The translations under genes and the position numbers were made by a program. Of a DNA stretch of 32,951 nt, positions 63 to 24,053 are shown piece after piece. This DNA comes from a virus. The notes beneath the pieces are model-generated. The model saw only the letters and a program-made list of their open reading frames with translations. It made no database searches and was not told the DNA's origin. Every line of letters starts with the position of its first letter. Position 1 is the stretch's first letter. Location of the stretch: IMG/VR virus record IMGVR_UViG_3300012920_000009, positions 1 through 32,951 of that record; one strand, written 5' to 3'.

Positions 63-3000
63 TTACTTCTACAGGATTTACAGTTAACGCAGGTTCTGCA
101 AGTGGAAATTTTAATACAAGTGGATCAAATTATGTGGCATATTGCTGGAAAGCAAACGGAGGAACTACAAGCAGCAATACTGATGGTACAATTACAAGCA
201 CAGTACAAGCTAATCAAAATGCAGGATTTTCAATAGTTAAATATAATGGTAATGCTACAAATAATGCTACGGTAGGTCACGGGCTTTCTTCTGCTCCTGA
301 ATTATGGATTGGTAAACAATTATCAGGAAATACAATTAATTGGCAAGTATTATTTTCAGGATTTTCTGAGGGTGATTTTTTAACTTTAAATACTACTGCT
401 GCAAAAGGTAATTCAGTTAATGTATCGTTTGATCCAACTGCAACAACAGTCAAATTTCAAGGTGGACAAGCATTAAATGACAATGAAGATTATATAGGTT
501 ACTGTTATCATTCAGTAGCAGGGTATTCTAAAATTGCAACATACACAGGTAATGGTTCGGATAATGGACCGATTGTAGAAACAGGATTTGAACCTGCTTT
601 TGTAATGATTAAAAGAAGTAGCAGCACAGGAAACTGGTTAATATATGATAATAAAAGAAGTACAACAAACACAAGAGATAAATTATTATTTGCAAATGAT
701 TCAACAGCAGAGCAAACACAAGCTTATGTTGATTTTCTATCAAATGGTTTTCAAATTGCTGCAGCAGGTGGTACAGGTGATACGAATATAAATATTAATG
801 GAAGCACATATATCTATATGTGTTTTGCTGCAGATCCTGATTCAGAAACACCAACACTTACAAGTAGTTTTAATGCAGAACTTTATACTGGTAATGGTAG
901 CACACAAAGTATTACAGGGATAGGGTTTTCACCGAATCTAACTTGGATAAAAGATAGAAGTGCAACTTTTGGACATAGATTAATTGATTCTGTGAGTGGC
1001 CCTAACAATTATGTTGAATCAAGTTCAAGTTCTTCACAACAGGGTGCAGGAGGTAATGGTTTAAGTACTTTTGATGCAGATGGGTTTACATTAGGTTCAG
1101 GTAATGCACATAATAAAAGTGGAGATGATTTTATTTCTTGGAATTGGAAAGCGAATGATAATGAAGCAACAATAGAAGAAGTAAGTTCAGATTTAGATGC
1201 AATAGCAGTATATAAATTTGAAAGCAATGCGAATGATGTTACAGGCTACCACAATGGAACTGCAACTGATGTAACTTATGTTAGTGGAAAGTTTAATAAT
1301 GCAGCAGATTTTAACAATACATCATCTAAAATAGTTATAGGAACTCAAAGTAGTGTTATACCAAGTGGTTCAAGAGGAGTTAGTTTTTCTTTTTGGGTTT
1401 ATTTAGATTCTGTTGATACAAGTTCAAATTATGACCATTGGTTTATAGGTCAGGAAAATTATGGTGGTTCGTTTGAAGATGGTGAATTTTCAGTTAGGTT
1501 ATATGGAGGAAAAGTTTATACTGATTATGCACAATCAAGTAGTATATACAGACAAAGACAAGCAAGTACTACATTATCAACTGGGCAATGGTATCACATA
1601 GTGGCTACTTATGATACTTCAAATGCAAATATCACAGAAGTATATTTAAATGGTAGTTTAGAAACAACCACAAATCTTACATCAGGAGGTACTTTTACAA
1701 CAAATAGTTTAATGCAAAACTCTACTAATATATCTATTGGTGGAGGAGCCGCATATACAGATGGTAAAATAGACCAATTTAGGATTTATGATCAAGTTTT
1801 AACTGCTTCAAATGTTACTACATTATATAATGAAACTGCATCTGATAATAATGATTTGAATTTGGGAATGACTTATGTTTCTTCTTTACAATCAATAGTA
1901 AGTGCAAATGCTAACGCAGGATTCTCCATTGTAAAATATGTAGGAGATGGTACTTCAAGTGCAAGAGTTCCTCACGGATTATCAAGTACTCCGGAAATGA
2001 TTATTGTAAAAGAACTTGATGGTTCTTCATCGTGGCAGGTATATCATACAGGATTATCTGCTAATAATGTCTTATTATTAAATAGTTCAAGTGCAGAAGC
2101 TAATCCATCAAGTGATTTTAACAATGGTGGACTTAGAACTGTAAATGCTAATACATTTGGATTTGTTTCAGGACTTACAGACACAAATAATGTAAACGAA
2201 TCAGGACTTGGATATATTGCCTATTGTTTTCATTCTGTTACTGGATACAGCAAGTTTGGTAGCTATGCAGGTAATGGAACTACTAATGCTATAACAACAG
2301 GATTTAAGCCTGATTTTGTATTAATTAAAACTTACGATAATTCTGACCAATGGGTTATAATAGATAGTCGTAGAGGTGGTACAAAAATATTACAACCAAA
2401 TTTGACTGCTGCTGAAAGTTCAGAATCAGGTGTAAATGTAAGTTTTACATCAACAGGTTTCACACATACAGGAAGTGGTGGTGGAATTGGTCAAGTAAAT
2501 TCAAATGGAAGTAATTATATCTACTGGGCAATAGCTAAAAATGTACCAAGTAATACAACATTAGCTAATAGTTTTAAAGCAGTAACATATACTGGTAATG
2601 GAAGCAGTCAGTCAATAACTGGAACAGGGTTTAGACCTGATTTAGTTTGGATAAAACAAAGAAGTAGTACACAGGTCCCTATTTGGTATGATAGTGTTAG
2701 AGGAGCAGGAAATTATATTTTTTCATCAGGTACTGATGCACAGGGTTACTCTGCAGGAACAGTAAAATCATTTGATTCAGATGGATTTAGTGTTGGTTCA
2801 AGTAATAGTGAAAACCAAAATAGTGAAACATTTGTAGCTTGGTGTTGGAAAGCAGGTAATACTTGGCAATCTAATGTAGATGGTACAATACCAAGTACAG
2901 TAAATGCAAATACTGCTAATGGTTTTAGCGTTGTTAAATATAAAGGAACTGGTAGCACAGGTACTTACGGTCACGGATTATCATCATCGCCTGACTGGAT

Positions 3001-3514
3001 AATAACAAAAAGAATAGATTCATCTGAGGGTTGGATTGTTTATACAAGCAGTTTGTCTGCAAGTAACTATATGTATTTAAATAGTACAAGTGCAGCAGGA
3101 ACTGATACTAATGCTTATAAAACAATAAGTTCTACAACAATTCAAATTGGAACAGATAATACTGTAAATGTAAATGGTGGTGAATACATAGCTTATTGTT
3201 GGACATCAATATCAGGCTATAGTAAGTTTGGAAGCTACACAGGTAATGGAAGTACACAAAGCATTACTGGTATTGGATTTCAACCTGACTGGATTATGAT
3301 TAAGCAAACTAATGCAACTAATTCTTGGAGAATATTTGATAGTGCAAGAGGTTTATCTGCACCACAAACATTGTTTGCAAATCTAACTTTAGCAGAAGAT
3401 AGCGAATCTAATACAGTATCAAGTTTTGATAGTGATGGTTGGACAATGGGTAGTCAGCAAGGAGTAAATGATAATGGAGATACTTATATATATATGGCAT
3501 TTAAAATGAATTAA
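1..3514 (+). CDS. Modular tail fibre / adhesin with LamG domain (3' part; 5' part at 32654-32951)
   Basis: This is the larger part of a gene that starts at 32654 and crosses the circular junction. The complete product is 1,249 aa; the first in-window Met (134) is internal residue 124. The protein is built from about nine Gly/Ser/Thr/Asn-rich modules of 90-110 aa. Many carry a Y(T/A)GNGS..I..GF.PD..(W/M)IK signature followed by DS.RG; others carry a HGLSS.P(E/D) signature with an aromatic-rich strand. Between the fourth and fifth modules is a concanavalin/LamG-type domain (about residues 476-692; bases 1190-1840) with the typical FSFWVYLDS and QWYHIVATYD strands and a closing IDQFRIYD. Such modules occur in tail fibres of marine phages; LamG domains bind glycans. 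Receptor binding is inferred. The gene ends 10 bases before the next start. Function as adhesin is likely; ligand unknown. Confidence 0.85.
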   Translation, partial: TAAESTFDSSWRSSYGQIASFTSTGFTVNAGSASGNFNTSGSNYVAYCWKANGGTTSSNTDGTITSTVQANQNAGFSIVKYNGNATNNATVGHGLSSAPELWIGKQLSGNTINWQVLFSGFSEGDFLTLNTTAAKGNSVNVSFDPTATTVKFQGGQALNDNEDYIGYCYHSVAGYSKIATYTGNGSDNGPIVETGFEPAFVMIKRSSSTGNWLIYDNKRSTTNTRDKLLFANDSTAEQTQAYVDFLSNGFQIAAAGGTGDTNININGSTYIYMCFAADPDSETPTLTSSFNAELYTGNGSTQSITGIGFSPNLTWIKDRSATFGHRLIDSVSGPNNYVESSSSSSQQGAGGNGLSTFDADGFTLGSGNAHNKSGDDFISWNWKANDNEATIEEVSSDLDAIAVYKFESNANDVTGYHNGTATDVTYVSGKFNNAADFNNTSSKIVIGTQSSVIPSGSRGVSFSFWVYLDSVDTSSNYDHWFIGQENYGGSFEDGEFSVRLYGGKVYTDYAQSSSIYRQRQASTTLSTGQWYHIVATYDTSNANITEVYLNGSLETTTNLTSGGTFTTNSLMQNSTNISIGGGAAYTDGKIDQFRIYDQVLTASNVTTLYNETASDNNDLNLGMTYVSSLQSIVSANANAGFSIVKYVGDGTSSARVPHGLSSTPEMIIVKELDGSSSWQVYHTGLSANNVLLLNSSSAEANPSSDFNNGGLRTVNANTFGFVSGLTDTNNVNESGLGYIAYCFHSVTGYSKFGSYAGNGTTNAITTGFKPDFVLIKTYDNSDQWVIIDSRRGGTKILQPNLTAAESSESGVNVSFTSTGFTHTGSGGGIGQVNSNGSNYIYWAIAKNVPSNTTLANSFKAVTYTGNGSSQSITGTGFRPDLVWIKQRSSTQVPIWYDSVRGAGNYIFSSGTDAQGYSAGTVKSFDSDGFSVGSSNSENQNSETFVAWCWKAGNTWQSNVDGTIPSTVNANTANGFSVVKYKGTGSTGTYGHGLSSSPDWIITKRIDSSEGWIVYTSSLSASNYMYLNSTSAAGTDTNAYKTISSTTIQIGTDNTVNVNGGEYIAYCWTSISGYSKFGSYTGNGSTQSITGIGFQPDWIMIKQTNATNSWRIFDSARGLSAPQTLFANLTLAEDSESNTVSSFDSDGWTMGSQQGVNDNGDTYIYMAFKMN

Positions 3515-5598: not shown

Positions 5599-7509
5599 AT
5601 GGCAGACCAAAATTTTAGAATACTTTTTGAATTTATTGCAAAAGTTGCAAAATTTAACCAAGATATTGATAATGCTCGTGGTAAAGTAAAAAAATTCACT
5701 ACTGATATGACCAAATTTGGTCGTACTATGTCCACAAGAGTTTCATTACCTCTTATAGCAGTTGGTACATTAGCTTTAAGACAAGCAGCTAAATTTGAAA
5801 GATTAAGAGTTACCTTAAATACACTTACTGGTTCTGCTGATGCAGGTGCTAAATCTTTTGAAAGATTAGTACAATTTAGTGCAGAAACACCTTTACAATT
5901 AGAAGAACTTACAAGAGTAAACAATATGTTAATGGGATTTGGGCAATCAACTGATGATGCTTTTAAATCTCTAAAAATGCTTGGTGATGTATCGGCTATA
6001 ACAGGTGGTAATCTTACAGGTATTGCAGTAGCATTTGGTCAAGCTGCCGCAGAGGGCCGTGTGATGACCAGGGATCTACGTCAATTTATAAATAATGGGG
6101 TGCCTATATTACAACTGCTTTCTGAAGAAATGGGTGTTGCCGAGGGAAAAATTATGGATTTGGCTTCAGAGGGTAAACTTACATTTGACATTTTAAATAC
6201 TGCATTTGAAAAAGCAACAAGTGATGGTGGTAGGTTCAATGATGGTCTTAAAATACTTTCGCAAACATTAGAGGGTTTATTTAGTACATTAAAAGATAAT
6301 GTAAATATTGCACTTGCAGAACTTGGTCAAGAGATTGCAGAAACATTAAATCTTAAAGAGGGAATACCTGCACTTTCAAAAAAAATAGGTGAATTAGTGA
6401 AAGGATTTAAAGGTTTAAATGATGATACACAAAAGTTAATTATAAGTGCAGGTCTTTTAGCAATAGCCATACCACCTTTGACAATAGCACTTGGATTTTT
6501 AATTTCTTCTGTAACAACAATATCAGCAGCATTAGTAGCTTTGAACCCAATAGTACTTGGAATAACGACAGTTGTTTTAGGTCTTGGTTCTGCATTTGTT
6601 GGTGCTAAAGTTTCAGGAGTTAGTTTTGGTGAAACAATCAAAAATGTTTTATTATCAGGTGGAAATGCAGGTGTATTAGCTTCCTTACAAGCAAAATCAA
6701 AAGCAGCAAAACTTGCAATAGATGAGTTAGCAGAATCAATGAAAAATGCTTTTACAGATCCATTAGGATTTACTGGTGCTAAACCAAAAGGATTTCCAAG
6801 CATACCAACAACTACAACAAATACTACTGGTTCAGGTGGAGAAGATACAGGTGGTACAGGTGGAGGTTTTTTAGGAATAAATCCTTTTATTTTAGGTACT
6901 GGTTTTCAATCACTTGCAGGTATTGTTAAAACTGAAGTGCCGAAGATGACTAATGTTACAAATGGTTTTGCAGCAGCTATGAAAGAAATTACTGCAAAGT
7001 TTACTGATTTTAGAGTAAATGGTATTGAACCAATAGTAGAAGAAACAAAAACATTTGGTGAACAAATTATACCTCAAATCGGTTTTGCTTTAAGAGATGG
7101 ATTTGCAAGTATTGCAGAGGGTGAAAATCCTTTAAAAAGATTAGGAACAATATTAAAAGGTTTAGTTACAAGATTACTTGCAGCAGCAGCAGCAGCAATG
7201 TTACTTGGTGCATTTTTGGGTGGTGCAGGTGGTGGTTCAAGAATATTAAAAAATTTGGGTGGTATAAAAGGATTATTTACCCAATTCTCTGGTATTGAGT
7301 TAGCAAGAGGTGGTATTGTATCAGGACCAACAAATGCTTTGATTGGAGAATACCCAGGTGCAAGATCTAATCCTGAAGTAGTTGCACCATTAAGTAAATT
7401 AAAAACAATGTTAGGTGGTGGTGCTATGCAAGGTGAGTTTGTATTAAGAGGACAAGATTTAGTTGTAGCATTACAAAGAGCAGAAAGAAATAGAAATAGA
7501 TTTAAATAA
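5599..7509 (+). CDS. Tail tape measure protein
   Basis: A 636-aa protein with the N-terminal tape measure domain: an opening helix, then about residues 60-240 containing the conserved FERLRVTLNTLTGSADAGAK, the AVAFGQAAAEGRVMTRDLRQ segment and NNGVPILQLLSEEMG, as in the TIGR02675 family. The middle has long hydrophobic helices (about 278-345), then a Thr/Gly linker, a poly-Ala/Gly hydrophobic stretch (about 525-550) and a typical C-terminus (ARGGIVSGPTNALIGEY and NPEVVAPLSKL). It sets tail length and is ejected with the DNA; at about 0.15 nm per residue it implies a tail near 95 nm. Its length and the synteny identify a siphovirus. Its stop overlaps the next start as TAATG. A GCA repeat at about 7183-7197 encodes the Ala run. 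Confidence 0.93.
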   Translation: MADQNFRILFEFIAKVAKFNQDIDNARGKVKKFTTDMTKFGRTMSTRVSLPLIAVGTLALRQAAKFERLRVTLNTLTGSADAGAKSFERLVQFSAETPLQLEELTRVNNMLMGFGQSTDDAFKSLKMLGDVSAITGGNLTGIAVAFGQAAAEGRVMTRDLRQFINNGVPILQLLSEEMGVAEGKIMDLASEGKLTFDILNTAFEKATSDGGRFNDGLKILSQTLEGLFSTLKDNVNIALAELGQEIAETLNLKEGIPALSKKIGELVKGFKGLNDDTQKLIISAGLLAIAIPPLTIALGFLISSVTTISAALVALNPIVLGITTVVLGLGSAFVGAKVSGVSFGETIKNVLLSGGNAGVLASLQAKSKAAKLAIDELAESMKNAFTDPLGFTGAKPKGFPSIPTTTTNTTGSGGEDTGGTGGGFLGINPFILGTGFQSLAGIVKTEVPKMTNVTNGFAAAMKEITAKFTDFRVNGIEPIVEETKTFGEQIIPQIGFALRDGFASIAEGENPLKRLGTILKGLVTRLLAAAAAAMLLGAFLGGAGGGSRILKNLGGIKGLFTQFSGIELARGGIVSGPTNALIGEYPGARSNPEVVAPLSKLKTMLGGGAMQGEFVLRGQDLVVALQRAERNRNRFK

Positions 7510-10500
7510 TGGCATACGGTGTAAAATATGAACTTGATTTTTCTGACATCAAGGGTAATAAAAGAAGTGTTCAAATACTTAAAAAAGATTATACTGGTGA
7601 AGTATTTTCTATAATAGGTACTGAAAGTCCTGTAGTAATAAAATATACCAATGATGATGATTTTTATAACCCGATTATAGGTTCTTCGTGTGTTTTAAAC
7701 ATAAAAACAACTGACACAATTAGTTATGATGAATTTACTGATTTTGATGAGAGAGAATATAAAGTAAGATTAAATATTGGAGTTGATGATCCACAAGCAG
7801 ATATTAATTCACCACTTTGGCAACTTGCCGACACAAACTGGGAAGCATCAGATTTTAATTGGGCAGCATCAACTGTATTTCAAGTTTATTGGGAGGGGTT
7901 TTTAGTTTCGGATACTTTTAGAGAAGCGATACAATCAAAACCTTTTGATATATCTTTAAGAGCAATAGATAATTTAGGTTCATTAGAAGCATATTTAGTG
8001 CCTGATGGTAATATAAACACTAATAATGATGGAACAATTAAAACTGCTGCAGGTGAACAAGATAATATAGATACTGCATTTTATTATTTACATAAAATAC
8101 TAAAACTAACAGGGTTAGATTTTGACATATATATTCAAAATAATATTAGAAGAACATTTGATGGTTTAATCGTATCTCAAAATAATAATTTATTTCAAGA
8201 TATAAGAATTAATGAGTTTGCTTTAATGGATAATTTTTCCAAAAAAAATTCAAAACAAGTATTAGAAGAAATATTAAGAATTACAAATTCAAGAGTTTAT
8301 CAAGCAAATGCTTCTTGGTATGTCGTTTCAAATAGTAATTATTATGATGTAGCTATTGCAGGTCAATTAGGTGATTTTGACCAAAATCAACTTGCAGAAG
8401 TGCCAACTGTTACCACTAATGCAGTTACAAATAAAGCAACAACAAGTGGTACACTTAATGGAACAATAGTTTCAGATAAAGGTTTACAGATAATTGAGAG
8501 AGGATTTTATTATGGTACAAGTCCAATTTATATACAAAATGAAAAAGAAGCATCAACAGATACATCAAGCAGTTTTACTTTGAATATATCAAATTTAATA
8601 GAGGGTGAAACTTATTTTATACAAGCTTATGCAAAAAATAATATATTTTTAGAGGGACTTGGTAATGTAGTAGAATATGTACCAGGTGAGGTTGAACCTG
8701 ATGATGACACCCCTATTAGACCTGTTGTGCAAATGCAAAATATAAATCCTTACACAGTTGAAAATGACAAAATGTTATTCACAGGTCAATTCTCAAATGT
8801 AGGTCAAAGTAATGTTATTGAATATGGTTTTTATTTTGGAACTGATGGAAATGATTTTAACAATAATCAAAAATATCCAATAGCAACAGGTGTAAATATT
8901 TCTGTTGCGACTGCATTTGCAGGTGATACATCAGCAGCACCTTTTAATTTAACACTTGCTTCAGGACAACCATTTTACATAAATGCTTATGCTAAAAATT
9001 CACAAGGTGAGGGTGTAAGTAGTCCAACCACCGAACAATATACTTGGAATGCTTGGCAATTAAGAAAGCAAAGTGATTTATCAACACAAAGTGTACCATA
9101 TACATCAGATGCAAGAGGTTCGAATGTTTTTATATCTACATCTTCAAGTAATACAGATTGTTATACAATAATGGTTGGACAATTTTTAGCAAGTTTAAGT
9201 GGACTTCCAACTATTTCAGGAAGTTGTGCTGATAATACAACTGAACCTACTGCATCAGTTGAAGAAACTTGTAAAGAAGTTGTACTATATAGAAGTAGTA
9301 CTGCTTTTAGTTTGTGTTGTGAGGATCCGACATCAAGACAAGCATATATTAACGGTCAATCATTGACAGATAGTGCTACAACAAAAGTATTTAATGATAG
9401 CGAGTGTACTACATTAATACCTGCACAATATGTGTCAGAAAATTTAGAACAATATAGATATTTTAATGGTACTGTCTTAGGAAATGTAGTTAATTGTCAA
9501 GATAATGCAGGTGTTGATGTTTGTGATCCTGATGTAATAACACCAAGTGGTTGGCTATTGCAAAAAGATAATTCATTAGATAGAGTCAAGGTTGCATACA
9601 ATTCAACCTATGGTGAAGGTCAAAGAGTTATTATAGATAGTGATTCAGAAAATTGTTATACAATTATTGAATCTTTTAGAGATGCTGCAACAATAACATC
9701 ACCAACAATTAGTTCTCTTTGTACTACTGCAACACCTACACCTACACAACAATGTCCAACTATGACATTTTTTGCAAGATACTTGTTGTGTGGTGGTGAT
9801 GAAATAAAAATTATTGGAAGTAATATAAATAATTTCCCTAATGTAATTAAAAAAGTAAGCACTGATGAATGTTGGAGTTTTATTGATAGAACAAGTCAAA
9901 CAACTAATGATGATGAATTTAATTTAGGTTGTTTTCCTGTTAATAAGTTTGTTGTCAAAGGTGGTCAAGTAAATGGTTTTCCAAGTTGTGATGATTGTTT
10001 AGACATATCAACAACAACACAGGTGGCAAAACCAATAACCACAACAACACAATCAGTTTTCTTTAGACAATACATTGAGATACAATCAAATTGTAGTGAT
10101 GCAGATCAATTGTTAGAAGTTTCTAATACTGAAAACAATTTTCCAAATGTAATTACTGATGGTTTAAGTTGTTTTAGAAATCAAAATGCAGGTGGTCAAG
10201 GTCAAGATGGTTTAGTTACAGACACAACTAAATTTCCTGCAACTTTTAACAATGGTGTATTATCAACAGATTGTGCTGCTTGTAATGCTTATATTTCGAC
10301 AACAACAACACAAACACCTACAACAACACAAGCACCTTGTAAAGAAATTTCAGCATCAGTTACAACTATTGCAATAAATGCTTGTTGTGGTTCAAAATCA
10401 ACTTCTTTATATATAAATGCAAATAATATTTTACTTGCAAGTGTTATATACACCAATGCAACTTGTACCACTGTTTTACCTGCAGGTAACTTTATTAATA

Positions 10501-10568
10501 CTGGAGGTCAATTATATTTTTGGACAGGTAATACACTTGTTGAGCAAAATTGTCCACAGTGTCCATAA
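7509..10568 (+). CDS. Large tail-tip / distal tail protein with Fn3-like and Cys-rich modules
   Basis: A 1,019-aa protein coupled (TAATG) to the tape measure gene. Residues 1 to about 290 look like a tail-tip hub (KYELDFSDIKGN, then EVFSIIGTESPVVIKYTND, then a VYWEGFLVSD strand). Two Fn3-like beta domains follow (about 298-395 and 400-512), both with a GFY(Y/F)GT strand and a Y(A/I).AYAKN end. From about 513 the protein turns into cysteine-rich beads: two W.L.K modules (513 and 683), two CKE...CC modules (about 590 and 943), and two modules sharing NNFPNVI followed by C(W/F). They are separated by Thr/Pro linkers (about 740, 835, 930). The beads probably form disulphide-stabilised, surface-exposed adhesin units. 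Role at the distal tail is inferred from position and first domain. Confidence 0.75.
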   Translation: MAYGVKYELDFSDIKGNKRSVQILKKDYTGEVFSIIGTESPVVIKYTNDDDFYNPIIGSSCVLNIKTTDTISYDEFTDFDEREYKVRLNIGVDDPQADINSPLWQLADTNWEASDFNWAASTVFQVYWEGFLVSDTFREAIQSKPFDISLRAIDNLGSLEAYLVPDGNINTNNDGTIKTAAGEQDNIDTAFYYLHKILKLTGLDFDIYIQNNIRRTFDGLIVSQNNNLFQDIRINEFALMDNFSKKNSKQVLEEILRITNSRVYQANASWYVVSNSNYYDVAIAGQLGDFDQNQLAEVPTVTTNAVTNKATTSGTLNGTIVSDKGLQIIERGFYYGTSPIYIQNEKEASTDTSSSFTLNISNLIEGETYFIQAYAKNNIFLEGLGNVVEYVPGEVEPDDDTPIRPVVQMQNINPYTVENDKMLFTGQFSNVGQSNVIEYGFYFGTDGNDFNNNQKYPIATGVNISVATAFAGDTSAAPFNLTLASGQPFYINAYAKNSQGEGVSSPTTEQYTWNAWQLRKQSDLSTQSVPYTSDARGSNVFISTSSSNTDCYTIMVGQFLASLSGLPTISGSCADNTTEPTASVEETCKEVVLYRSSTAFSLCCEDPTSRQAYINGQSLTDSATTKVFNDSECTTLIPAQYVSENLEQYRYFNGTVLGNVVNCQDNAGVDVCDPDVITPSGWLLQKDNSLDRVKVAYNSTYGEGQRVIIDSDSENCYTIIESFRDAATITSPTISSLCTTATPTPTQQCPTMTFFARYLLCGGDEIKIIGSNINNFPNVIKKVSTDECWSFIDRTSQTTNDDEFNLGCFPVNKFVVKGGQVNGFPSCDDCLDISTTTQVAKPITTTTQSVFFRQYIEIQSNCSDADQLLEVSNTENNFPNVITDGLSCFRNQNAGGQGQDGLVTDTTKFPATFNNGVLSTDCAACNAYISTTTTQTPTTTQAPCKEISASVTTIAINACCGSKSTSLYINANNILLASVIYTNATCTTVLPAGNFINTGGQLYFWTGNTLVEQNCPQCP

Positions 10569-11476
10569 TGAGATATATTTCTGCACAACCTGCTTCAATT
10601 TATTATTCTTGGCAAGTAGATACTATGATTCATAGTTTTATTAATAATGGCATAAAACAAGAACAAATAGATATTGTTTTTGCTGATAAACCCCAATATG
10701 AAAATTGTTGTTATTATTTAGTATCTAAATATCCAAAAGTTAATTTTTATTTTTACCCTGATTTAAGAAAAAAGATTAAATATATTTCAAGTATAAGACC
10801 TCATATACTGAAAAAACATTTTTATAGATATGCTGATTTGTATAAAGGTACATTTTTATATCATGATTGCGATATTGTTCTTACAAAACCTTTAGAACTA
10901 AATGGATATTTATGTGGTTGTAATCCAACTTGTTATCTAAGCAATACTATAAGCTATATAGGTTACGAATATATAAAATCTAAAGGTGAAGATGTTTTAG
11001 ATTTAATGTGTAATGTTGCCAATATAGATAAAGATATTGTAAAGAAAAATCAATTAAATTCAGGAGGTTGTCAATACCTTTTAAAAAATATAGATTATAA
11101 ATTTTGGCAAGAAGTTGAAATAGATTGTGAGAATTTATTTACAGAAGTTGTAGCTTTAAATGCAAAGAAAAAATCTAAGGACAAAAATTATCATGAGTTG
11201 CAAATTTGGTGTGCAGATATGTGGGCAGTCCTTTGGAATCTTTGGAAAAGGGATAGAAAAACAAAAATTATTGATGAGTTAAATTTTACTTGGGCAACAC
11301 ACGAAAGAGAAGAATGGGGTAAGTATGCAATATTTCATAATGCAGGAGTTAATGATAATAAAAATGCTGCTTTTCATAAAGCTAAATATTTATCAAAAAA
11401 ACCACCAAAAAATTTAAAAATAAATCCAAAATTAGCTTCATACGAATATTATGAGTTAGTAAAACAAATATTGTAA
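10568..11476 (+). CDS. Glycosyltransferase-like protein (GT-A type) within the tail-tip operon
   Basis: A 302-aa protein; I choose the ATG at 10568, overlapping the preceding stop as TAATG, over an in-frame ATG 18 bases upstream. It has GT-A features: an N-terminal Rossmann-like part (IDIVFADKP at about 34-42), the KKHFYRYADLYKG segment, then FLYHDCDIVLTKPLE with a D-x-D motif (Asp100, Asp102) of the kind that holds a metal and nucleotide sugar. Later come a NSGGCQYLL acceptor-like segment, a Trp-rich helix (WCADMWAVLWNLWKR) and IFHNAGV with a late histidine as in some retaining families. Substrate unknown. It could glycosylate virion proteins or act on host glycans, or be a degenerate fold used structurally. 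The next start is only 10 bases downstream. Confidence 0.7.
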   Translation: MRYISAQPASIYYSWQVDTMIHSFINNGIKQEQIDIVFADKPQYENCCYYLVSKYPKVNFYFYPDLRKKIKYISSIRPHILKKHFYRYADLYKGTFLYHDCDIVLTKPLELNGYLCGCNPTCYLSNTISYIGYEYIKSKGEDVLDLMCNVANIDKDIVKKNQLNSGGCQYLLKNIDYKFWQEVEIDCENLFTEVVALNAKKKSKDKNYHELQIWCADMWAVLWNLWKRDRKTKIIDELNFTWATHEREEWGKYAIFHNAGVNDNKNAAFHKAKYLSKKPPKNLKINPKLASYEYYELVKQIL

Positions 11477-11481
11477 ATTTG
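11474..11481 (+). promoter_or_regulatory. TAnnTTTG element four bases before the 11486 start
   Basis: TAAATTTG overlaps the stop codon of the glycosyltransferase-like gene; four bases (TAAT) then separate it from the ATG at 11486. It would give a leaderless transcript. No spaced TTG is visible, so its strength is uncertain. Confidence 0.45.
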
Positions 11482-11485
11482 TAAT

Positions 11486-12769
11486 ATGGGAATAATTAGA
11501 GCAGAGCAAACAAGATTACTGCAAGAAAATGGTACTGAAATAATTGAATTTTTTGTTTATGATAAAGATGGTAATGCAAAATCACCACTTAATGAAACAA
11601 AAGATGTTTTAAAACAAATACCAAGTGTCTTAAATCCAATAAATCAAGATTTAGAGGTTGAATATTTACCACCAGTTAGAGATGTAATAAAAAAAACAAA
11701 AACTAATTCAATTCAACTTATAAATAAAAACCCTAATTTTAGATACCAAAATTTTAATTGGGATATAACTGCTTCTTTAGGATCAGTCCAAATACCAAGT
11801 CAAATTTTAGCAGGTGTAAATCCTATATCAGGTATATATTGTTTATATCAACCCACAATACCTTTAACAGATAGTAAAACAACACACTTTGTAAAAAACA
11901 TTTTATCAGATACACCTATTGTAAGTGGTCTTGATATTGAGATAAGTTGGAACTATTATATTTTTACAGGCATTAGTGCATCTAATGTCAAACAATTTAT
12001 TAGTGTTGGTCTTGATTCTACTAATGATGGTAGTGTAAATAAGATGTATAATTTTGAAGATAATAAATTTACAACTGGAACTTTTACAAATGATGAGTTT
12101 TTTAGAAAAATAGATTATACAAATTTAGATCAGTGGGATAAATATAAAACTACTTTACAAGCTAATTTAACTGCAAGTGAAACTAATCCTCATATTGAGG
12201 TAAAACTATTTCAAGTAACTGGTTCTGAAGTACCATTTGGTAAAGTGTTTTTTGATGGTTTGTCAATATCACAAAAAATATCTTCTAACACAAAAACTCA
12301 CACAAGGAGGAGGGGTGGTATATTAAAAATAATTGATGGTGCATTAACTTTTGAAGAAAGTGAAAATGTAACTGGTGAGTATATTCAAAAACAAACCTTT
12401 TTATCAAATGAAATTGACAAACAAAGTATAAACCATTTTCCAAATGAATTTAGTAGAAAAGATAGACCATTAAGTTTTTATTCTACAAATACTCTTGATA
12501 AAAATGCACTACAAGAGATTATCAATGATTTTAGAGAACCTTTAAAAAGATATGAGGGTACATTTTATAAAAATGATTCTGATGTTGTACCTATTTATTT
12601 TTACCATAAACTATGGATTAATTTTGGCACAACTGTACTTCAAGAAGCAGTAAGTGCTATTATTGATGAAATGGAGTTTGATGTAAAGCAAAATCAATAT
12701 AGAATTGTTATGCACTTACCAAATCAAGATGATGACCAAGTAGCATTTGATTTATATAAATTTGATTAA
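11486..12769 (+). CDS. Putative minor tail / tail-tip protein
   Basis: A 427-aa protein, last gene of the tail block. No clear family. N-terminal residues 1-55 look like a small beta domain (EIIEFFVYDKDGN). About 70-260 resembles a jelly-roll or carbohydrate-binding-like beta sandwich, from NPNFRYQNFNWDITASLG to KVFFDGLSISQKI. The C-terminal part (about 270-427) has KIIDGALTFEESENVTGEY, a YSTNTLDKNALQEIINDF segment and a final VIMHLPNQDD strand, and resembles tail-associated domains that pack on the hub. Its place after the tail tip suggests a structural, possibly receptor-contacting, component. It ends just before an AT-rich hairpin and the promoter of the DNA-metabolism genes. Confidence 0.6.
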   Translation: MGIIRAEQTRLLQENGTEIIEFFVYDKDGNAKSPLNETKDVLKQIPSVLNPINQDLEVEYLPPVRDVIKKTKTNSIQLINKNPNFRYQNFNWDITASLGSVQIPSQILAGVNPISGIYCLYQPTIPLTDSKTTHFVKNILSDTPIVSGLDIEISWNYYIFTGISASNVKQFISVGLDSTNDGSVNKMYNFEDNKFTTGTFTNDEFFRKIDYTNLDQWDKYKTTLQANLTASETNPHIEVKLFQVTGSEVPFGKVFFDGLSISQKISSNTKTHTRRRGGILKIIDGALTFEESENVTGEYIQKQTFLSNEIDKQSINHFPNEFSRKDRPLSFYSTNTLDKNALQEIINDFREPLKRYEGTFYKNDSDVVPIYFYHKLWINFGTTVLQEAVSAIIDEMEFDVKQNQYRIVMHLPNQDDDQVAFDLYKFD

Positions 12770-20258: not shown

Positions 20259-20720
20259 GTGAAAAGCAACAAAAAACAACACACTAAAAAAGCAATACTT
20301 ACTGCTCTTGAAAAATCTCTTGGAGTTGTAACGACTGCTTGTAGGCAAGTTGGTATAAATAGGACTACCTATTACAAGTATCTAAAAGAAGATGAGGAGT
20401 TTGCTAAGCAAGTAAAAGATATTGAGAACATTGCTCTTGATTTTGCTGAATCACAACTGCATAAACAAATAAGTGAGGGCAATACTACTGCTACAATATT
20501 TCTTTTAAAGACAAAAGGTAAATCTCGTGGTTATGTAGAGAGAAGCGAGATAGTGCATGACAATCAAATTAAATCTACAATCATAGAATGGACACCACCA
20601 AAACAGTTGAACAAAAATGTAACAGACAATTCTACGACCTTATCAAATCAAACAAAAGATTCAAAGTCCACCAAGGAGGAACAAGGTCAGGAAAAACTTT
20701 CGGAATCTGTCAATACTTAG
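20259..20720 (+). CDS. terS: Terminase small subunit
   Basis: A 153-aa protein from the GTG at 20259, chosen because the promoter element and terminator exclude the GTG at 20232. The N-terminal part is an HTH: KAILTALEKSLGVVTTACRQ, then VGINRTTYYKYLKEDEEFAK, a homeodomain-like fold used by small terminases to recognise packaging sites. A central helix (IENIALDFAESQLHKQISEG) and TATIFLLKTKGKSRGYVERS follow, typical of phage small terminases next to PBSX-type large subunits. The last 44 residues are polar and low in complexity; their DNA also encodes the start of the large subunit, a 133-base overlap in another frame. Confidence 0.82.
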   Translation: MKSNKKQHTKKAILTALEKSLGVVTTACRQVGINRTTYYKYLKEDEEFAKQVKDIENIALDFAESQLHKQISEGNTTATIFLLKTKGKSRGYVERSEIVHDNQIKSTIIEWTPPKQLNKNVTDNSTTLSNQTKDSKSTKEEQGQEKLSESVNT

Positions 20721-21803: not shown

Positions 21804-24053
21804 ATGGCATCAATATTTTCAAGAGTTAGAAATTTAATTTCAAAAAACTTTCAACAAACAAATGAACAATTTAATAGAGCAATCTATAATTATTTAGGTA
21901 ACACAATTATTTGGAATCCTGAAAACGATAATACTTACATAGAAAAAGGTTATCAATTTAATTCAACTATTTATTCAATAGTTAATTTAATAACTAAAAC
22001 TGCTGCTACTATACCTTTTCAAGTTTATGAAATTAAAAATGAGAATGAGTTAAAAAGGTATAAGTCAATCACAAGTGGACTTGCAAATGGTTCATCATTA
22101 TATAAAGCAGATATACTTAGAAAACATGCACTTGAAGAAGTATCTGACACAGAAATACACGAGGTTCTTTCAAGACCTAATCCTGCACAATCCTATAACT
22201 CTTGGATTCAAGAACTTATTGCTTTTGGTAAACTTACAGGTAATCGTTATATATATGGAATAAAACCTGATACAGGTGCAAATCAAGGTAAGTTCAAAGA
22301 ACTGTATATACTTCCAAGTCAAAAGGTAGAGATTAAAAGTGGGGGTATATTTGAACCTGTAAAATCTTACTGTCTTGATTACAATGGTCAATACAATATG
22401 TTAGCTGAAGATGTTTGTCATATAAAAGATTTTAACCCTTATTATGATGGTACTGGTTCACACCTTTATGGTATGTCGCCACTCAAAGCAGGTCTTAGAT
22501 CGTTAGACACTAATAATGAAGCAGTAACAACAGGTGCTAAGTATTTACAAAATCAAACTGCAAGAGGTGTGCTTATGAGTGATGAGGGTGATTTAAATGA
22601 AGTTCAAGCACAACAACTTAAAGAAAAATTTAGACAAAATTATTCAGGTAGTAAAAATGCAGGTGATATTGTTATTACACCAAAAAAACTATCATGGATA
22701 AACTTTGGTATGTCAGCATCAGATCTATCTTTAATTGAACAATACAATGCAAGTATTAAAGATTTATGTAATATATATTCGGTGCCTGCAGTTTTATTAA
22801 ATAATACAGAATCTTCTACTTACAACAATGTTATTGAAGCTAAAAAGAGTTTATATCAAAATGCAATAATACCTGAAATGAATAAAATTCGTGATGAATT
22901 AAATAGATGGCTTGTACCTGCTTATGGTGAAAAACTATTTATAGATTTTGATTATACAAACATATCTGAACTGCAAGAGGAAATGGACAAAGTAGTAAAT
23001 CAAATGTCAAGTTCTTGGTGGCTTACTCCAAATGAAAAAAGACAAGCGATGAGTTATGGTGTAGATACAGAAAACGATAAACTAAATGATTATTACATAC
23101 CAATGAATCTTGTGCCACTTGGTGATGAAGTAATTGAAGAAGATGTTAAAAGTGTAAAGATTGATTACAATGATTTGATGGACAACAAATATAGAATTCG
23201 TAGAGATGTATTTACAACTGAACTTGAAGCAAGAAGCAGAGCAGAAGCTATTGGTTGTAATGGTACACACACTCATACAGAAGATGGTAAAACAATATAT
23301 ATGCCTTGTGCTTCGCACGATGACTATATTGCTCGTGTTGGCAGAAATGTTAAGTATGGCGAAGATGATGAAGATGATAAATATGATGAGGACAAAGAAT
23401 TTATTGACAAACCTGCAAAACCTGGAAGTGCAGTAGAAACAGGACTTAGAAATAAAGTAAAAGAACACAATGAGAAAGTTGGTAACAATAGAAGCAAAAG
23501 AACGACTTACAGAACTTTACAAACAGTATTTAATCGTGGCATAGGTGCTTATAGAAATAATCCACAAAGCGTAAGACCAAGTGTAAGGAGTGAGGATCAA
23601 TGGGCTTATGCAAGAGTAAACTCTTTTTTATATGTACTTAGAAATGGAAGATTTAGAAGTGGTAAACATGACACTGATTTATTACCAAGTGGACACCCTA
23701 TGTCAAGCAAAAAATCATTAACTAAAAATGTATCTTATAAAGATTACCCACAGGGTGCAACAAATAATGCAAAGAGAATGTTAGGTTGGATAGAAAAATA
23801 TGGTCGTGATGTAGTTAGAGGTGGTACAGAGGTTGGACTTGCAAGAGCAAATCAACTGGCAAAAAGAGAACCTATATCACTTGATACTGTAAAGAGAATC
23901 AATAGCTTTTTAGCAAGACATGAAGATAATGCTAAGATTGCAGAGCAATATAGAGATGAACCTTGGAAAGATAAAGGTTATGTAGCTTATAATATGTGGG
24001 GTGGTAAAGCAATGGTTTCTTGGGCAAAAAGAATATCTGAAAATGCTGACTAA
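21804..24053 (+). CDS. HK97-type portal protein with long C-terminal extension
   Basis: A 749-aa protein. Residues about 1-445 are an HK97-family portal: FNSTIYSIVNLITKTAATIP (53-72), LSRPNPAQSYNSWIQELIAF, GNRYIYGIKP, then GMSPLKAGLRSLD, LQNQTARGVLM and IYSVPAVLLNNTESSTYNN (324-342). This is the 12-subunit DNA gate. The other 300 residues are unusual. At 475-515 is a unit with IGCNGTHTHTEDGKTIYMPC (Cys485, His489/His491, Cys502, His505), perhaps zinc-binding. At 540-640 is a basic unit (RTLQTVFNRGIGAYRNNP, then SEDQWAYARVNSFLYVLRNG and KHDTDLL). At 655-745 is a third unit ending YVAYNMWGGKAMVSWAKR. Related units occur as C-terminal additions in other phage head proteins. It overlaps the next gene by 11 bases. 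Confidence 0.92.
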   Translation: MASIFSRVRNLISKNFQQTNEQFNRAIYNYLGNTIIWNPENDNTYIEKGYQFNSTIYSIVNLITKTAATIPFQVYEIKNENELKRYKSITSGLANGSSLYKADILRKHALEEVSDTEIHEVLSRPNPAQSYNSWIQELIAFGKLTGNRYIYGIKPDTGANQGKFKELYILPSQKVEIKSGGIFEPVKSYCLDYNGQYNMLAEDVCHIKDFNPYYDGTGSHLYGMSPLKAGLRSLDTNNEAVTTGAKYLQNQTARGVLMSDEGDLNEVQAQQLKEKFRQNYSGSKNAGDIVITPKKLSWINFGMSASDLSLIEQYNASIKDLCNIYSVPAVLLNNTESSTYNNVIEAKKSLYQNAIIPEMNKIRDELNRWLVPAYGEKLFIDFDYTNISELQEEMDKVVNQMSSSWWLTPNEKRQAMSYGVDTENDKLNDYYIPMNLVPLGDEVIEEDVKSVKIDYNDLMDNKYRIRRDVFTTELEARSRAEAIGCNGTHTHTEDGKTIYMPCASHDDYIARVGRNVKYGEDDEDDKYDEDKEFIDKPAKPGSAVETGLRNKVKEHNEKVGNNRSKRTTYRTLQTVFNRGIGAYRNNPQSVRPSVRSEDQWAYARVNSFLYVLRNGRFRSGKHDTDLLPSGHPMSSKKSLTKNVSYKDYPQGATNNAKRMLGWIEKYGRDVVRGGTEVGLARANQLAKREPISLDTVKRINSFLARHEDNAKIAEQYRDEPWKDKGYVAYNMWGGKAMVSWAKRISENAD

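Follow-up and report, generated by a model that had tools for sequence, protein, structure and literature searches.

Why would a siphophage carry a glycosyltransferase-like gene in the middle of its tail-tip operon? The window considered here, a virus record of 32,951 bases analyzed over its whole length, has a siphophage layout, with the tape measure gene at 5599 to 7509, the terminase at 20588, and the portal at 21804. A large tail fiber or virion structural protein with several repeated segments (PHROG 19943/24898) occupies 134 to 3514. The host is probably a marine bacterium; that it belongs to the Bacteroidota is inferred from relatives. An earlier, sequence-only reading had noted a DXD-containing, GT-A-like gene (here GT) coupled to a tail-tip gene and had offered two accounts of it: action on the virion, for example by glycosylating the Thr/Pro linkers of the neighboring protein, or a sugar-binding fold put to structural use at the tail tip. 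The features that bear on this question are as follows.

5599 to 7509, + strand: tape measure protein, given as context upstream of the 7509 gene
7509 to 10568, + strand: tail-tip-type protein of 1,019 residues, the predicted acceptor; its stop overlaps the GT start
7509 to 8357, + strand: N-terminal half of the ancestral tail-tip protein (residues 1 to 283)
8358 to 11485, + strand, approximate borders: inserted segment, comprising an Fn3-like plus Thr/Cys-rich module (residues ~284 to 1019) and the GT gene
9723 to 9752, + strand: Thr tract TTATPTPTQQ, residues 739 to 748
10011 to 10052, + strand: Thr tract TTTQVAKPITTTTQ, residues 835 to 848, in a linker modeled with low confidence
10296 to 10337, + strand: Thr tract STTTTQTPTTTQAP, residues 930 to 943, in a linker modeled with low confidence
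10568 to 11476, + strand: GT-A-type glycosyltransferase gene, 302 residues (PHROG 4417), with an ATG start, DXD at D100/D102, and a C-terminal H257-x-x-G260
11486 to 12769, + strand: C-terminal half of the ancestral tail-tip protein, encoded here by a gene of its own

The GT gene and the predicted fold of its product

The 302-residue reading frame is real, and the coupling described for it was seen in the DNA: the TAA stop of the 7509 gene (10566 to 10568) overlaps the ATG of the GT gene as TAATG. The DXD motif is D100-C-D102, within FLYHDCDIVL. Across 72 relatives, with identities falling to ~25%, neither aspartate varies, nor do H257, G260, and K271; the GT-A hallmark of a conserved DXD is thus satisfied. 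The invariance of these residues argues for catalysis and against a relic fold.

The sequence-only reading would have been refuted had no GT-A fold been found. An AlphaFold2 model built with 72 sequences was of high confidence (pLDDT 95.4, pTM 0.92), and its Foldseek matches were GT-A enzymes. VIA-align placed glycogenin first (Z 14.9 over 200 residues at 3.1 Å) and LgtC second (Z 14.3). D100 and D102 come after the strand at 95 to 99, and H257 closes the strand at 255 to 257. The predicted model thus has a single Rossmann-like GT-A fold, as a GT-A enzyme should, and it is on this model that we call GT a GT8-like protein of GT-A fold, closest to glycogenin and LgtC. GT8 and its relatives (glycogenin and LgtC; UGGT of GT24, GT6, and WbbM) share that fold with GT over nearly the whole chain and likewise have a DXD after a strand; a C-terminal His in an HxxG context may be a further common trait. 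The GT8 motif, a metal-binding C-terminal His in HxG or HxxG followed by a Lys, may have its counterpart in the invariant H257, G260, and K271. These families differ in that their identity to GT is at most ~15% in the alignments listed and in that GT has no Pfam or NCBIfam match, whether the protein or its alignment serves as the query. A recognizable GT8 profile is therefore lacking: no Pfam glycosyltransferase family matched any of 36 members at E values up to 1. A PDB sequence search with the GT-family profile also returned no match.

GT does belong to a known phage family. The PHROG 4417 profile matches it at full length (residues 1 to 301, E 2.3e-56); that family is listed as "prophage pi2 protein 34," of unknown function, and the link to an acceptor that we propose below is absent from the literature searched. 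By tblastn, distant relatives of GT were found in 74 annotated phage records, all below 60% identity and mostly from phages of Lactobacillus, Enterococcus, Staphylococcus, and Lactococcus. Relatives also occur in hundreds of viral contigs and at 42 loci in bacterial genomes.

Threonine-rich neighbors and an apparently divided tail-tip gene

We compared the genes around GT at 159 loci, scoring a product as Thr-rich if it had at least 6 T in some 12-residue stretch. The gene directly upstream of GT met this threshold in 124 of 159 cases, compared with 137 of 1,672 other genes and 3 of 155 genes lying downstream. Since the loci are partly kin, these counts are not independent trials. The maximum number of T per 12 residues averaged 8.12 for upstream neighbors versus 3.73 for length-matched genes, and Thr was by far the most enriched residue upstream, with no other residue near it relative to length-matched controls.

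The upstream partners are major tail, major capsid, and tail-tip proteins without relationship to one another. Those from Firmicutes phages are assigned by PHROG to several unrelated families of major tail or major head proteins, and their alignment reveals a common C-terminal poly-Thr tail. In annotated genomes, a GT homologue often lies directly behind a structural gene: the major tail protein in phiFL1A, PMBT8, and LpeD, the major structural protein in Lactococcus phage 1706, a laboratory dairy phage whose orf13 has a Thr10 tail, and a capsid protein in bIL285 and CHPC836; one small gene separates it from the major tail protein in TPWB06. At the bIL285, VPE25, and Listeria fleischmannii loci, no tract is present in the adjacent gene; a Thr tract lies four genes off instead, at or near the position of the major tail protein. 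Hence, one mark of a virion glycosylation system, a phage-encoded GT linked to structural genes, is present. The GT homologue of VPE25 goes unmentioned in the main text of the proteomics paper on that phage.

The window's own predicted acceptor offers the Thr-rich linkers that had been expected of it, in the form of Thr/Pro/Gln tracts at the three positions listed above. They are modest, with a longest T run of 4, versus long runs in other lineages. A model of the acceptor module, only moderately confident (pLDDT 75, pTM 0.32), places the second and third tracts in low-confidence linkers between small beta-rich domains; the label "Fn3-like" for this module was assigned by eye, without a profile match. 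Five Thr residues of the third tract are invariant in 22 relatives, though the flanks diverge to 30% identity. Judged from these alignments, such constancy would be unusual for a plain linker. At two loci (L003 and L011), the linker matching window residues 835 to 848 has turned Pro/Glu/Asp-rich, and the last Thr linker is retained.

The gene that follows GT is indeed a tail gene: it encodes the second half of the ancestral tail-tip protein. In relatives without GT, the counterparts of residues 1 to 283 of the 7509 product and of almost the entire 11486 product form one continuous protein of 650 to 770 residues. L462, L465, L469, L475, and others, which have no inserted segment, thus encode both halves in one reading frame. 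In GT-bearing relatives, the halves are separate genes with the Cys/Thr-rich module and GT between them, and some lineages have a further GT29-like or radical-SAM gene after GT and before the second half. Because the halves are continuous where GT is missing, it appears that a segment of ~3.1 kb, comprising the acceptor module and GT, split an ancestral tail-tip gene. That this was an insertion, and not a loss followed by fusion, is an inference.

Could GT simply be a part of the tail tip? Its activity might have been lost, or never have been present, leaving a structural or carbohydrate-binding component, as the second account of the sequence-only reading would have it. GT folds bind sugars, and the gene does lie between two tail-tip halves. 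However, the invariance of the DXD and H257 across the 72 relatives and the pairing with Thr tracts count against a structural role. Moreover, GT is also found with capsid and tail-tube proteins and with small Thr-rich proteins, which share no tail-tip setting, and it occurs in a secreted-peptide cluster. In phage 1706, orf14 (the GT homologue) is annotated "unknown," versus orf11, orf12, orf13, and orf17, which are annotated as structural; this is evidence from annotation only. The structural account is not excluded, but we hold it to be improbable and favor an enzyme that acts on its neighbor.

Co-occurrence of GT and the Thr tract

Are GT and the tract gained and lost together? Control relatives were fetched with the acceptor bodies, tails removed and blind to GT, for the major tail protein and two capsid types. 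The major tail protein set contained 17 members with both tail and GT, 55 with neither, and none discordant. On the tree of this protein there were 9 state changes, all concordant, at least 5 of them on well-supported branches; a sign test restricted to the 5 supported pairs gave 0.06. For the Lactobacillus-type capsid, 13 had both, 13 had neither, and there was 1 exception, in which the capsid end is apparently out of frame and GT is in two pieces. The Enterococcus-type capsid gave 56 with both (10 distinct C-terminal sequences) and 11 with neither.

In the window's tail-tip family, all 41 members with GT have at least 7 T per 12 residues, and all 8 without it have at most 6. The cutoff of 7 was picked after the data had been seen. 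The cutoff of 6 applied to the 159 loci fails to separate the GT-less relatives, 6 of 8 of which would then count as Thr-rich. Over all four acceptor families, with this one post hoc cutoff, the presence of GT and of the tract agree in 214 of 215 loci. Such joint gain and loss suggests that the virus adds sugar to the particles it builds.

GT and the tract are adjacent, so a single recombination can move both, and the loci are not independent. The two might then be hitchhikers on one mobile cassette with no functional tie, and their joint presence between the tail-tip halves does suggest movement as a block. Against this, GT recurs beside unrelated proteins whose common trait is the Thr tract, and the tracts of bIL285, VPE25, and Listeria fleischmannii lie at a distance from it. 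The Thr residues held constant in the window's last linker while its flanks diverge also count against a passive passenger. We regard mere hitchhiking as very improbable.

The pairing is not complete from either side. About 24 GT loci have no Thr-rich gene in the sampled DNA, many of them fragmentary. A 7-codon Thr match was present elsewhere in 5 of 16 tract-less GT records, and a reversed-pattern control also gave some background. Conversely, GT was nearby in only 11 of 57 poly-Thr viral reading frames with enough downstream DNA. We also considered whether poly-Thr proteins generally have some GT downstream, and found no support for this idea: 85 downstream genes yielded only one GT and one radical SAM among the 25 families listed. 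Since poly-Thr without GT is common, the tract alone does not predict glycosylation.

These figures leave room for another target. GT might act on the DNA of the phage or on the envelope of the host, for receptor masking or serotype conversion, and the Thr tracts might be unrelated linkers. Many phage GTs do modify DNA or the host surface, and poly-Thr tracts are frequent without GT. However, the concordant gain and loss of GT and tract in four unrelated acceptor families speaks against such a target, as does the placement of GT beside a structural gene rather than in a DNA-modification or lysogeny module. We give this possibility little credence.

Two further observations concern poly-Thr genes. 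At L290 to L409, poly-Thr reading frames are frequent in viral contigs, mostly without GT, and the run at L338 reaches 60 Thr. In a Piscibacillus prophage (L209, L214), GT is broken into three frames, and the major tail protein retains its poly-Thr tail.

Proposed function, known systems, and accessory genes

Taken as an enzyme, GT is likely a cis-encoded O-glycosyltransferase for the Thr tracts of the upstream tail-tip protein; the glycosylation is inferred. Thus, the proposal that GT acts on the virion gains strong comparative support from the GT-A fold, the invariant residues, the Thr tracts in unrelated structural proteins, the accessory glycan genes, and a cellular T6 pairing; its chemistry remains an inference, and no glycan has been seen. 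We envisage that GT would act in the cytosol, adding sugar to Thr residues in the probably disordered, Thr-rich linkers. It would be active, with nucleotide sugar and metal ion held by D100/D102 and H257, and the Thr hydroxyls of the 7509 product would be the acceptors. Translational coupling would bring GT and acceptor together ahead of tail assembly. The likely benefit would be stiffer and better shielded linkers or C-terminal tails where these are exposed, along with a particle surface that is masked or tuned.

With less assurance, we lean toward a broader reading, in which PHROG 4417 is a general poly-Thr O-glycosyltransferase cassette that brings its own acceptor tract. It would serve tail tubes, capsids, and tail tips of Firmicutes and Bacteroidota phages as well as secreted-peptide clusters, giving many siphophage virions a mucin-like coat that extra phage enzymes elongate.

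Phage virion glycosylation as such is known. According to PMC12619734 and PMC12691614, which summarize Freeman et al. 2023, mycobacteriophages encode GTs and are reported to bear glycans at the C termini of capsid and tail-tube subunits. These sites are those of the poly-Thr tails in Firmicutes GT relatives. In other respects the systems appear to differ: no mycobacteriophage was among the 74 phage records matched by tblastn, Che8 carries a poly-Thr tail on neither its capsid nor its major tail protein, and in the window the predicted acceptor is the tail tip. No paper on poly-Thr tracts with this GT was found in the open-access literature. As far as we searched, the role of the GT family, the poly-Thr acceptor, and the cassette inside a tail-tip gene are new.

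Our reading gives a widespread phage family of unknown function a specific and testable one. Finding a Thr tract beside a GT gene would be enough to predict that a phage particle is glycosylated and which of its residues carry the sugar. Virion glycosylation, which in mycobacteriophages affects antibody recognition, would be extended to phages of Lactococcus, Lactobacillus, Enterococcus, Staphylococcus, Bacillaceae, and marine Bacteroidota. GT would also be a candidate enzyme for a simple, portable poly-Thr tag of use in glycoprotein engineering.

Cellular homologues of GT are longer, at ~480 to 526 residues (L171, L173, and L174). In Sphingobacterium bovisgrunnientis (L173, 7609 to 15248), the homologue lies directly behind an 82-residue peptide with a double-glycine leader, a TTTTTT run, and several Cys. 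Nearby genes encode an ABC exporter with a C39 peptidase, VKOR/thioredoxin proteins, and two GT2 enzymes. On sequence grounds, this locus is a separate case of the GT/Thr-tract pairing. It resembles glycocin clusters in its leader peptide, exporter, and disulfide-type redox proteins, a likeness of gene content alone.

Genes after GT in other phage lineages match GT29, GT2, GT6, Gly_transf_sug, radical SAM/SPASM, 2OG-Fe(II) oxygenase, and, for sulfation, APS kinase. It is plausible that this set could build and decorate a glycan, with elaboration that varies. By inference, relatives with GT2, GT6, GT29, DXD sugar-transferase, APS-kinase, or radical-SAM genes would make larger or decorated glycans. 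At many loci, among them L062, L075, and L042, a member of a family of ~290 to 304 residues (MKIISAKYGGIDCTE...) overlaps the GT gene at its end; the member at L075 matches no Pfam model. Extra genes of the kinds named above lie downstream of GT at L033, L039, L052, L067, L069, L074, and L131.
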